This document shows positions 31,979-35,839 of a stretch of 64,000 bases of DNA, piece after piece. Source of the stretch: Acidipropionibacterium acidipropionici (GTDB taxonomy: Bacteria; Actinomycetota; Actinomycetes; Propionibacteriales; Propionibacteriaceae); NCBI RefSeq assembly GCF_001441165.1, contig NZ_CP013126.1, forward strand, positions 1,021,551 through 1,085,550, written 5' to 3'. The position numbers were made by a program, and so were the translations under genes. Position 1 is the first letter of the stretch, and the number at the start of each line of letters is the position of its first letter. The notes beneath the pieces are model-generated. The model was not told where the DNA came from and ran no database searches. It saw only the letters and a program-made list of their open reading frames with translations.

Positions 31979-33028
31979 ATGGCGCCACGACACCTCCCCC
32001 GCGGGCTCCTCACCCTTACCCTCGGACTCGCCCTCACCACCACCGGTGCACCCCTGGCCAGAGCCGACACCCCGGCAGATCGTGCTCGCCAATCCTCAAA
32101 CGCCCCTCGATACACCACTGCCACTGGTGCTGCGGCGCAGTATGTTGCCGATAATCTGTCGGTGGCGCGGGCGTCGTCGGCGTCGGGTCTGGGGGTGGAG
32201 TTGGATGCGTTGATCGGGGTGTCGGCGACAGGGACCCAGTCGGATGCCGCGGAGACGATGCTGTCTGATGTGAAGACTTATGGGCCGACGTACTGCCCGA
32301 CGGCTTCTCCTGCCGGTCATGTGGGGGCGTGTGCGAAGTTGTCGATCGCGTTGATGAGTGCGGGTGAGGATCCGGCGTCGTTCGACGGGAAGAATTACAT
32401 CGGGGCCGTGTCGGCGGCGTCCTCGTACACGTCCTACAGCGAGTATGTGACGAACACGGCGTTGGCGCTGGTGGCCTTGTCGAGGGCGGACAAGCCGGTT
32501 CCTGCGGCGCTGTTCCAGGCTGCGATCGATCAGTCGGCCGACCAGTGGCCGGCGTCGGGGTCCCCGGCATGGGATGACATCGATTCCGGCGGGTTGATGC
32601 TGACCGCCCTCTCACATGTCAACGATTCCCGTAAGACTGCGACGGTGACGAACATCGAGTCGTGGATGGATCAGGCGAGGGTGGATGGCGAGGGGTGGTC
32701 GAATCAGGTCACCACGTCTGATCCGTCCTCGAATGTGAATACGACGGCGTGGGTGGCCCCGGGGATGGACCGTTCCGACGAGACCTCCCAGGCCGTTGAC
32801 GCTCAGTCGTGGCTGGTGAGCCAGCAGAACACGGACGGGTCGTTCACCGCGGGCCCTGATCTGACCGAGCCCATCAATCTCATGATGGCCACCACCCAGG
32901 CCATCCCACCCCTGCTCGGCCTGTCGAGCTACGACAACACCGGCACCACATACCAACCCCACGAGATCCGGGTGATTAGTGGGCAGCCCCGGGTCTGTCA
33001 AGAAATCGGTGTAACTGGCGTTGGGTGA
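31979..33028 (+). CDS. Truncated alpha/alpha-barrel secreted protein (5' half of the split gene)
   Basis: About 349 residues as it stands. Signal peptide MAPRHLPRGLLTLTLGLALT, cleavage near ARA-DT, then repeats of two-helix units each with a QDGSF-like turn. GGAAAG lies eight bases before ATG 31979. Last 13 residues come from the IS end. Roughly 96% identical in protein to the minus-strand copy at 55342-56322, differing mainly in MLSD flanks, PTASPAG and RKTATVTN. Could still be exported and bind a ligand, since the barrel domain itself is complete. Confidence 0.7.
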   Translation: MAPRHLPRGLLTLTLGLALTTTGAPLARADTPADRARQSSNAPRYTTATGAAAQYVADNLSVARASSASGLGVELDALIGVSATGTQSDAAETMLSDVKTYGPTYCPTASPAGHVGACAKLSIALMSAGEDPASFDGKNYIGAVSAASSYTSYSEYVTNTALALVALSRADKPVPAALFQAAIDQSADQWPASGSPAWDDIDSGGLMLTALSHVNDSRKTATVTNIESWMDQARVDGEGWSNQVTTSDPSSNVNTTAWVAPGMDRSDETSQAVDAQSWLVSQQNTDGSFTAGPDLTEPINLMMATTQAIPPLLGLSSYDNTGTTYQPHEIRVISGQPRVCQEIGVTGVG

Positions 33029-34397
33029 GTTCAGTTGGCGTGGGCGGACAGGCGACCGTCGAAGGTCATGTCGAAAGCGTTGAGGGCTTGCTTCCAGCGT
33101 TGGGTCCACCGGGCCCTGCCCTTGCCGGTCGGATCCAAGGCCATCACGGCCATGTAGACGCACTTCAAAGCAGCCTGCTCGTTGGGAAAGTGGCCGCGAG
33201 CCTTCACAGCCTTGCGGATCCGGGCGTTCACGCTCTCAATGGCGTTGGTGGTGCACACGATCCGTCGGATCTCCCGGTCGAACCGCAGGAACGAGGTGAA
33301 CTCGGCCCACGCGTTCTCCCACAACCTCACGATCGCCGGATACTTGGTGCCCCAGGCCTCCTGGAAGTCCAGGAACCGGTCCTCAGCCTCGGCGACGGTG
33401 GCGGCCTGATAAACGGGCTTGAGTCCCCGCGAGATCGCGTCCCAATCGGCGCGAGACGCGTACTTGAAGCTGTTGCGCATCAGGTGGACCACACAGGTCT
33501 GCACGATCGTTTCCGGCCACACGGCGGCCACCGAATCAGGAAGGCCCTTCAACCCGTCGCACACCAGCATGAGGATGTCCTCGACGCCGCGGTTCTTGAT
33601 CTCGGTCAGGACCTGGAGCCAGTACTTGGCTCCCTCACCACCGTCTCCGCACCACAGGCCCAGGATGTCCCGGTTGCCCTCCGTGGTGACGGCCAGAGCC
33701 ACATAGATCGGGCGGTTGGCGACCTGGCCGTCACGGACCTTCACGTGGATCGCGTCGATGAAGATCACCGGATAGACCGGATCCAGGGGACGGTTCTGCC
33801 ATTCGTGCATACCGTCGAGGACCTTGTCGGTGATCGTGGTGATCGTCGTTTTCGAGACCTGGGCGCCGTACACGTCGGCCAGGTGGGCGGCGATGTCACC
33901 ATGGGTCATCCCGCGGGCCGACAACGACAGGACCACGTCCTCAATACTGCCCAGCCGGCGCTGGCGCTTCTTGACGATCACGGGTTCAAAGGTGCCGGCC
34001 CGGTCCCTGGGCACGTCGATGCCGACCGGCCCGCCCTTCGTGGCCACCGTCTTCGTGCGAGTGCCATTACGGGCGTTCCCGCCAGCCGAGGCGCCCCGCT
34101 CGTGCTTGTCGTAGCCCAGATGGTCGGTCAACTCGCCCTCCAGGGCAGACTCGACGACCAGCTTGGTCAGCTCGGCCAGCAGGCCGTTCTCCCCGTCGAT
34201 GGCGATGCCATTCGTCCGGGCTTGGTCGACAAGCTCGGTGACAAGCTTAGGGTCGACGGCAGGTGTTCGAGATGCGGTGGTGGTCATGGCTTCCTCGGGC
34301 TTCTCACTCGGGGCCGGGCTGGCCAGATCTGCTTGCGTTGTCATCGTGTAGCTCCTTGATCGGAGTTACACCGAAAACCGTACAGTCCCGCAGCCCC
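32983..34397 (-). mobile_element. IS256-family insertion sequence with 8-bp target duplication
   Basis: Element proper 32991-34389 (1399 bp). Ends are imperfect inverted repeats: left GGGTCTGTC...TCGGTGTAACT and right (complement) GGGACTGTA...TCGGTGTAACT, about 26 bp. The direct repeat GCAGCCCC flanks it at 32983-32990 and 34390-34397. Interrupts the fused alpha-barrel/hydrolase frame. Identical target repeats imply a recent event. Confidence 0.92.
33031..34344 (-). CDS. IS256-family (mutator type) transposase
   Basis: A 437-residue DDE transposase. Motifs: VIFIDAIHVKVRDG (first Asp), MLVCDGLKGLPD (second Asp), CVVHLMRNSFKYA, and TTNAIESVNARIRK (Glu). Full length and intact, so the element may be active. 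The start could also be at the internal Met at 34287. Confidence 0.95.
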   Translation of the reverse strand: MTTQADLASPAPSEKPEEAMTTTASRTPAVDPKLVTELVDQARTNGIAIDGENGLLAELTKLVVESALEGELTDHLGYDKHERGASAGGNARNGTRTKTVATKGGPVGIDVPRDRAGTFEPVIVKKRQRRLGSIEDVVLSLSARGMTHGDIAAHLADVYGAQVSKTTITTITDKVLDGMHEWQNRPLDPVYPVIFIDAIHVKVRDGQVANRPIYVALAVTTEGNRDILGLWCGDGGEGAKYWLQVLTEIKNRGVEDILMLVCDGLKGLPDSVAAVWPETIVQTCVVHLMRNSFKYASRADWDAISRGLKPVYQAATVAEAEDRFLDFQEAWGTKYPAIVRLWENAWAEFTSFLRFDREIRRIVCTTNAIESVNARIRKAVKARGHFPNEQAALKCVYMAVMALDPTGKGRARWTQRWKQALNAFDMTFDGRLSAHAN

Positions 34398-34405
34398 AGA
34401 ACAGG

Positions 34406-35839
34406 TTGGTGAGGGTGGCCCTGTTGGGCGATTCGTATTCTGCCGGGAACGGGATTCGGGCGGGGGGTTATACGTTTCCGGGCGGGTACAAGGGTCATGG
34501 GGAGTACGGGTCGTATCAGAGTGACCGGAATTATGCGTCGGTGTTGACGAAGACCCTGAATTCTCAGGTGCAGGGGTCGACGTACCAGCTGACCATGCTG
34601 GCCCACAGCGGTGCACTGCTTCACAACGATCCAGACGATACGAACGACAAGACTGTTCCCGAGATCGGGACCCAGGTGGGTCGGATGGATCCGCGGACGG
34701 GACTGGTGCTGGTGACCGCCGGCGGCAACGACTTGAAGTTCTCGACGGTGGTCAAGACGTGCATCGTGCTGGCCTACCTGTCGTCGGGCCGGTGCCGCCA
34801 GATCCTGGACGGGGACGGATCGACGAAGTATCCGTCTCTGGATGATCGACTTGCGGGGGTGCGTGCCTCGACCCAGGCGTTGCTGGCAAGGATCCAGTCC
34901 AGGGTGACGAATCCCGAGCAGGCACGGGTGGTACTGGTGGGCTATCCGTACCTGGCCGACGCCGATCTTCACGTGTTCGCCGATTACGGGGTGGGTCCAC
35001 AGTTGCGGGCCGCCCAGGACCGCTTCACCGCGATGCAGAAGGACCTGGTGGCCTCGTGGAACGCCGGCCATACCCTGCAGGTGGTCTTCGTGGACACCTC
35101 GACGGTGTTCCTCTCCCATGAGACGAGTTCGGTGCTGGGCAACCGGAATCCGAAGCGGTGGATCAACGAGGTGCTGGAGACCGCGGGTGATGACTACGGT
35201 CTCCCGGGAGCAACCACGACGTCGATGGCGTCGTTGGATATGAACAACTGGTATCACCCGAAAATCATCGGCCACCGGCAGATGGCGGTGCGGATCTACA
35301 GTTCGGGGGCGGTGAAGCGAAGCCGAGCCGTCATACCGGGGGTTGACTGGTCGGGGCTGGCGTCGGTGCCGGAGCCGCCCAGGGTGGCGGCCGATGTGAT
35401 GGGGAGCAATATCGTCAAGGCCGGCCAGCAGTTGAGTCTGGATGCGTCGTCGTCGTTCGCCCTGGAGGGGCGGGTGACCAGGTATGAGTGGGATCTGGAC
35501 GGGGACGGCTCCTATGAGACGTCTGGTTCGGCGCCGACGGTGTCCGTGACGTATCCGTCGGTGCGGGATGTGGATGTGGGGCTGAGGGTGACCACGAGTA
35601 CGGGTCTGTCGGCCACGACGGTGTGGGGTGTGTCGGTGACCCGTGATGGGGATGAGGTGCCTGACGGGCAGGACAACTGCCCGGCCGACCCGAATCCCGG
35701 CCAGGACGACTTTGACGGCGACGGGATCGGCGACGTGTGCGGCCCGGATCCCGGCTGGACCCTCCGGGGCCAGGACGCCACCACCAGCGAGGGCTCGGCG
35801 AGTGGGAAGGCTGGCGGTGATGATGCGAGCCGTAGGTGA
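34406..35839 (+). CDS. SGNH/GDSL hydrolase with PKD and thrombospondin-3 segments (3' half of the split gene)
   Basis: About 477 residues: hydrolase (1-300), PKD-like (315-415), TSP3 calcium-binding repeat (420-450) and a Gly/Ser-rich tail. Catalytic Ser in GDSYSAGN, oxyanion Gly-Asn in TAGGNDLKF, His in NNWYHPKIIGH. Starts only at TTG 34406 or GTG 34409, directly after the IS end, without a signal peptide, so it is probably no longer exported. Overlaps the next gene by 20 bases. Confidence 0.75.
   Translation: MVRVALLGDSYSAGNGIRAGGYTFPGGYKGHGEYGSYQSDRNYASVLTKTLNSQVQGSTYQLTMLAHSGALLHNDPDDTNDKTVPEIGTQVGRMDPRTGLVLVTAGGNDLKFSTVVKTCIVLAYLSSGRCRQILDGDGSTKYPSLDDRLAGVRASTQALLARIQSRVTNPEQARVVLVGYPYLADADLHVFADYGVGPQLRAAQDRFTAMQKDLVASWNAGHTLQVVFVDTSTVFLSHETSSVLGNRNPKRWINEVLETAGDDYGLPGATTTSMASLDMNNWYHPKIIGHRQMAVRIYSSGAVKRSRAVIPGVDWSGLASVPEPPRVAADVMGSNIVKAGQQLSLDASSSFALEGRVTRYEWDLDGDGSYETSGSAPTVSVTYPSVRDVDVGLRVTTSTGLSATTVWGVSVTRDGDEVPDGQDNCPADPNPGQDDFDGDGIGDVCGPDPGWTLRGQDATTSEGSASGKAGGDDASRR

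Follow-up and report, generated by a model that had tools for sequence, protein, structure and literature searches.

Among the described proteins that come closest to the gene analysed here are two groups. The first comprises transcobalamin, intrinsic factor and haptocorrin together with bacterial toroid proteins carrying an SLBB domain, which have been proposed as vitamin B12 scavengers with various extracellular domains fused to them (in the relevant passages of Burroughs et al., 2007, PMC1796856); the main text of that paper nowhere uses the word 'esterase' or 'hydrolase'. The second comes from Cutibacterium acnes, for which nine putative adhesion proteins with TSP3, PKD and SEST domains, several of them frameshifted, are reported in strain KPA171202 (PMC3666418, in its passages on these proteins), and for which three cobalamin riboswitch regions are described as preceding pseudogenes, taken there for adhesin fragments, and larger TSP3 proteins, their role unknown (PMC9600381, likewise). 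Here we have analysed a 64,000-nucleotide stretch of the Acidipropionibacterium acidipropionici chromosome (the window; NZ_CP013126.1, positions 1,021,551 to 1,085,550), in which a gene joining an alpha/alpha toroid to an SGNH hydrolase with PKD and TSP3 domains has been split in two by an IS256-type insertion sequence (IS). We consider it probable, with room for doubt, that the unsplit product is a secreted, probably surface-held cobamide-acquisition protein and that the element entered the linker of this one gene recently.

The split itself is real. The 5' half (31943-32990, forward strand) comprises a signal peptide, read from 31943 or 31979, and the toroid at about 32111-32974 (346 bits with the toroid profile); the 3' half (34398-35839, forward strand) comprises an SGNH/GDSL hydrolase at about 34415-35287, a PKD domain at about 35390-35617 and a TSP type-3 stretch at about 35645-35704. 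Between the two open reading frames (ORFs) lies an element of 1,399 bp on the reverse strand (32991-34389), bordered by the target duplication GCAGCCCC, whose 8-bp copies at 32983-32990 (left) and 34390-34397 (right) are identical at 8 of 8 positions. IS256-family elements are defined by a target duplication of 8-9 bp and terminal inverted repeats. Both are present here, the inverted ends being imperfect (19 of the first 28 positions match), and the element encodes an intact Mutator-type DDE transposase of 437 residues (33031-34344, reverse strand; Pfam Transposase_mut, expectation value (E) 2.4e-121, 405.7 bits against a cut-off of 21). It is thus an ordinary member of the family, with no difference noted, and the insertion with clear ends and an 8-bp duplication that a preliminary description of this DNA had proposed is borne out. 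A search of the organism's own genome with 33000-34200 shows the element as a single copy; related IS256 elements, 75-78% identical, are found on actinobacterial plasmids (eight matches listed).

When the flanks were joined by script with one 8-bp repeat removed, a single open frame of 829 codons from the ATG at 31943 was restored (817 from 31979, the start used in the preliminary description, which had predicted as much); the right flank's two other frames hold 16 and 15 stops. Because an in-frame join alone would arise by chance about one time in three, the convincing test is collinearity with unsplit relatives, presented below. As it now stands, the 5' ORF (31943-33028, forward strand, 361 codons) begins with the signal peptide, continues into the IS and meets a stop at 33028, giving the toroid half about 12 foreign residues. 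The insertion lies in the linker 3' of the toroid and thus leaves each domain physically complete. With its signal peptide and entire domain retained, the toroid half may still work beside an intact paralogue. The hydrolase half has no signal peptide and no ATG near its beginning, its start being TTG 34406 (the first in frame) or inside the IS; with its export signal lost, this half is probably dead. Only a few hundred bases past the split gene there is also a gene for a DDE_Tnp_4 transposase (36367-37140, reverse strand), from which it follows that the region has received several insertions.

Relatives of the two halves were sought in 198 genomes of the family, where the hydrolase half has relatives in 25, the standalone toroid in 14, and both occur in 7: the window's own genome, G106, G107, G108, G109, G110 and G112. 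Sequences of G107, G110 and G112 are identical to named contigs of Cutibacterium avidum, C. modestum and C. porci, which places these genomes in Cutibacterium; G108 and G109 belong to genus g13, likewise Cutibacterium by way of named contigs. Three uninterrupted ORFs in G109 (L035, 743 residues; L058, 733 residues) and G108 (L037, 762 residues) run from signal peptide through toroid and SGNH hydrolase to PKD and TSP3. The joined window protein is collinear with them and 41% identical to L035 (alignment A1), in agreement with the preliminary description's claim of one gene in which barrel and hydrolase are fused. The refuting case named there, barrel and hydrolase encoded without exception by separate genes with a signal peptide each, is not what these genomes show. 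The toroid and hydrolase profiles both match one ORF in L035, L037, L058, L061, L063 and L065. The last three are the only toroid matches among the best 80 of 115 relatives on named contigs, and most of the other loci in these 80 have a signal peptide directly before the hydrolase. Two further loci, L039 and L043, are shorter cuts of the genes in L065 and L063, with the riboswitch stretch cut or absent, and each gene was counted once. L061 is contig CP070792.1, titled as a Gemmatimonadota metagenome-assembled genome; it carries the same uninterrupted, Cutibacterium-like fusion frame. The frame is masked at both ends and located inside an unrelated frame, and we therefore treat the contig as a mislabelled or chimeric assembly.

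Other copies are broken. The fused frame is interrupted inside the hydrolase in G107 and G112, and in G106 a stop interrupts the linker at three nearly identical loci, whose signal peptide is read in a different frame; the third of these is known from its matches. Altogether nine fused or once-fused loci occur in six genomes, three intact and six broken, the window's copy by its IS. In G110 about 41 kb separate the toroid gene from the hydrolase, which is fused there to another N-terminal domain (the beta domain discussed below). The hydrolase alone, with its own signal peptide, is found in most other genera seen, and toroids alone with their own signal peptides occur at 55342-56322 of the window and in L143, L145, L146 and L156; a later search found toroid genes in 103 of 293 genomes of the order. 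Judged from these sequences, the toroid-hydrolase fusion is a genuine, if patchy, architecture of the Propionibacteriaceae. In the window the hydrolase is followed by a series of related ORFs for small membrane proteins to which Pfam assigns no function (35811-39478, forward strand), and similar-looking ORFs lie 3' of the hydrolase in the Cutibacterium loci.

The standalone toroid of the window (55342-56322, reverse strand) is a paralogue of the split copy, 94% identical to it within the toroid, with its own signal peptide and a stop directly after the domain, at the same place where the IS sits in the split copy. At the DNA level the two copies are 92% identical, with patches of 100%. Directly behind the paralogue lies a gene for a secreted leucine-rich-repeat protein of 1,211 residues (51631-55266, reverse strand), and in L031 such an ORF adjoins the G004 toroid. 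Between the split gene and the paralogue there is a third toroid protein, divergent and without a Pfam match (39497-40987, reverse strand, 496 residues; toroid profile 41 bits, E 4.9e-11). Furthermore, the window holds a decayed partial hydrolase copy with a possible 13-residue scrap of toroid (57815-59103, reverse strand, by sequence comparison). The preliminary description had read a part of it, 57994-59010, as barrel sequence next to hydrolase sequence. The hydrolase part of that claim stands, as 57815-58917 (reverse strand) matches the split gene over 921 bp (99.7% identity) and over 203 bp (84%); the barrel part amounts to one match of 13 residues, with E 0.007 for a search space of 1.1 kb, and is not found by the toroid profile. 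So weak a match led us to reject the view that the remnant (57994-59103) proves the fusion to be ancestral. The 921-bp stretch is an inverted duplication, 35098-36018 against 57815-58735 at 99.7% identity, that spans the 3' end of the hydrolase and the next small membrane-protein gene.

These comparisons bear on how often the fusion arose. Two independent fusions, in the window's genus and in Cutibacterium, instead of one ancestral event, are possible, if somewhat doubtful. A toroid tree of 19 rows joins the split copy to the window's standalone toroid as its sister (96/89), and the starred branches require the fused label to change at least twice. However, the junction falls in the same place in both genera, where the GDS block is preceded by a similar R-L-V-K/R motif (alignment A1), and gene conversion between the two window copies, to whose 92% DNA identity and patches of 100% it would correspond, would yield the same tree. 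One origin is neither shown nor excluded by the alignments and the tree.

What the toroid does is approached first through its fold. A model built from a five-sequence alignment is all helical, with a predicted local distance difference test score (pLDDT) of 76 and a predicted template modelling score (pTM) of 0.82, and transcobalamin chains occupy ranks 1-6 of its Foldseek matches (E 1.7e-3 to 5.4e-3). Z scores to transcobalamin, haptocorrin and intrinsic factor are 16.9-18.3, tied with other toroids. Profile searches lead to the toroid superfamily in general: among toroid members, SQHop_cyclase_C is matched in 10 of 17 and TED_complement in 8 of 17; a single standalone toroid searched against the PDB gave chance matches only. 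In the predicted model, then, the alpha6/alpha6 toroid typical of transcobalamin-type proteins is present, and the fold is secure while the ligand is not. Fold alone was rejected as proof of B12 binding, other toroids scoring as high.

A link to B12 is suggested by regulatory sequence. For 18 of the 20 toroid genes searched, the same strand carries a cobalamin riboswitch that ends 177-245 nt ahead of the toroid domain; eight of the 18 reach the Rfam gathering score, and seven lie in genera other than Cutibacterium, the window's standalone copy included. In that copy the riboswitch core occupies 56436-56490 (reverse strand) and precedes the toroid domain by 222 nt; at 23.3 bits (E 0.0011) it falls short of the gathering score, 31.5. 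Six loci from other genera that carry the hydrolase alone (L038, L040, L041, L042, L049, L055) served as a control in the same search and yielded no riboswitch. A second cobalamin riboswitch was seen 3' of the intact fusion in G108 (L037, 3438-3553, forward strand, 42.2 bits). The split gene itself sits between the set of small membrane-protein ORFs and a B12-type transporter region (25974-29153, forward strand), likely an ATP-binding cassette (ABC) transporter for B12 judging by its riboswitch (25974-26159), substrate-binding protein (26198-27286), FecCD permease (about 27292-28347) and ATPase-like ORF. Elsewhere in the window, further cobalamin/adenosylcobalamin riboswitches and a fluoride riboswitch score at or above the gathering score (59701-59867, forward; 63412-63663, reverse; 23464-23605, forward; 6137-6208, reverse).

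The company that the toroid keeps points the same way. Immediately upstream of the split gene, 31158-31811 (forward strand) encodes a secreted protein with a membrane anchor, whose beta domain (SCO2322-like, below threshold) is of the type that relatives carry fused to the toroid. Beta domain and toroid share one ORF in seven genomes (G011, G020, G071, G082, G092, G095, G166), five of them outside the set used for the beta profile; the beta domain is N-terminal to the toroid in G092 and in one G095 ORF. In C. modestum the beta domain takes the toroid's place before SGNH-PKD-TSP3 (L064, the same as L036 of G110), and this gene lies behind a riboswitch-like stretch (27.4 bits, E 0.0049). The domain weakly resembles, in sequence, the C-terminal domain of transcobalamin and SLBB/DUF4430 domains; its matches to the SCO2322 family are partial and below the cut-off. 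Domains of Cutibacterium proteins encoded 3' of standalone toroids resemble the beta domain by eye, but the beta profile scores them at E 0.17 to 0.42 and we do not claim them as such. Our locus shares with transcobalamin, intrinsic factor, haptocorrin and the bacterial toroid-SLBB proteins a secreted alpha/alpha toroid and, in relatives, a joined or adjacent beta domain and a riboswitch link to B12. It differs from them in having an SGNH hydrolase, with PKD and TSP3, joined to the toroid, and no SLBB/DUF4430-type beta domain is found at profile threshold in the split gene or in the unsplit toroid-SGNH ORFs.

The hydrolase belongs by sequence with SGNH/GDSL enzymes: its profile matches a Streptomyces phospholipase A1 (4hyq, E 7.5e-27), a lipase (5mal, E 7.9e-27) and the S. 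scabies esterase (1esc, E 1.7e-13), and the four conserved blocks supply Ser, Gly, Asn and His, Ser10 and Asn108 being invariant in 17 rows and Gly69 and His284 almost invariant. No conserved Asp occupies the column three before the His; SGNH-type enzymes can work with a Ser-His pair. The GDS, GGND and HP blocks are those of the Streptomyces enzymes, whereas the matches cover about the first 150 profile positions and the PKD, TSP3 and toroid parts are additional here. PKD_4 scores 30.5 bits in the window (cut-off 27), and TSP_3 scores 17.4 bits in the window (cut-off 25), 32.4 in L035 and 34.9 in L064, with NCBIfam TSP3-type matches. A SEST-type hydrolase followed by PKD and TSP3 is thus predicted, the layout of the 'putative adhesion' proteins.

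Our best reading of these features is a riboswitch-linked cobamide-scavenging protein with an attached esterase. The preliminary description's 'cobalamin-binding type' barrel is strengthened by the riboswitches and beta-domain fusions, and we infer that the toroid would bind B12-type cobamides as the N-terminal half of transcobalamin does. Its beta-domain partner would be supplied by a neighbouring gene (here 31158-31811) or, in relatives, by fusion; TSP3 and PKD would tether the protein to the cell surface or to polymers, perhaps via calcium; and the SGNH enzyme, resembling Streptomyces lipases, may cleave acyl esters outside the cell and so bring cobamide bound in lipid, polymer or host material within reach. 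More tentatively, it is possible that Cutibacterium and the window species share a B12-repressed enzyme for locating, releasing and retaining cobamides, in which the halves of a transcobalamin-like pair, toroid or beta domain, serve as interchangeable front ends on one SGNH-PKD-TSP3 chassis, and that the orphan riboswitches of C. acnes control decayed scavenger copies, not adhesins. A cobamide-capture toroid would then be wired directly to an extracellular esterase.

Several observations weigh against cobamide acquisition. The toroid model has no Foldseek match at E ≤ 0.001, and a second aligner gives AprG Z 19.9, intrinsic factor 18.3, squalene-hopene cyclase 18.2 and transcobalamin 17.6 or less; none of the 44 PDB sequences listed for the toroid profile (E up to 10) is a transcobalamin, and they include terpene cyclases as well as complement-type proteins. 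Ten of the 18 riboswitch matches fall below the Rfam gathering score, with E up to 0.07 and two G106 copies the weakest, and 11 of the 18 lie in the one genus Cutibacterium. Upstream of the window's split gene a search at E up to 1 found no riboswitch, and none was found for the G004 toroid either. As for the beta domain, DUF4430 is matched in one of seven members (E 9.3e-4), no transcobalamin is among the four PDB matches of its profile, and its model reaches a pLDDT of 41. The Pfam GDSL model falls just below its cut-off in the window and is not listed for L035 at E 0.05. Finally, the fusion may be dispensable, as C. acnes and relatives carry mostly broken copies.

Some of this would also suit a surface adhesin or S-layer-type protein whose toroid binds a glycan or lipid, B12 serving as a signal for life on a host. 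The C. acnes KPA171202 relatives were, after all, reported as putative adhesion proteins (PMC3666418), PKD and TSP3 are surface modules, and alpha/alpha toroids bind many ligands, glycan-active ones scoring near transcobalamin. We nonetheless regard an adhesin as unlikely: the riboswitch is missing from all six hydrolase-only relatives and stands before toroid genes, also in genera without the hydrolase fusion, and the toroid pairs with the beta domain in seven genomes. That toroid and hydrolase have always been separate neighbouring genes, in a common frame by chance, is very improbable and for Cutibacterium already refuted, for although both halves occur alone elsewhere, an in-frame join comes up about once in three and the standalone paralogue stops where the IS sits in the split copy, unsplit, collinear ORFs with the junction in the same place exist in two genomes, which led us to reject a chance frame, and the 3' half has neither a signal peptide nor an ATG start near.

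The reading as a cobamide-acquisition protein also recasts the C. acnes literature. The hydrolase half is already known there as 'putative adhesion proteins' with TSP3, PKD and SEST (in the passages of PMC3666418 cited above), which qualifies the preliminary description's remark that the architecture was unfamiliar; literature searches under several wordings found no paper naming a toroid-SGNH fusion. The C. acnes loci share the hydrolase-PKD-TSP3 layout and the frequent frameshifts, and their order of riboswitch, small fragment and larger TSP3 gene is that of G106, where a riboswitch (scanned in two of three loci), a toroid frame of 296 codons, a stop and a hydrolase-PKD-TSP3 frame of 436 codons occur three times. 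In their passages on these loci, PMC3666418 and PMC9600381 recognise neither the upstream fragment as a transcobalamin-type toroid nor fragment and TSP3 gene as one gene. By elimination among the Cutibacterium genomes, we think that G106 is C. acnes; if so, the 'adhesin fragments' are transcobalamin-type toroids and each pair is a decayed single gene. The riboswitch-linked 'adhesin fragments' and TSP3 loci of C. acnes probably belong to the toroid-hydrolase family.

Within A. acidipropionici, the split copy offers an example of a gene decaying into a binding part that is still secreted and an enzyme that is no longer exported. Beyond this species, the family may answer a question left open in print (in the passages of PMC9600381 cited above), namely what is under the control of the cobalamin riboswitches that in C. 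acnes precede 'adhesin fragments' and TSP3 proteins. Extracellular capture of B12 by Gram-positive bacteria is little worked out, and a toroid like that of the human B12 carriers, placed under cobalamin riboswitches and fused to a hydrolase, would be a concrete, testable candidate for it.

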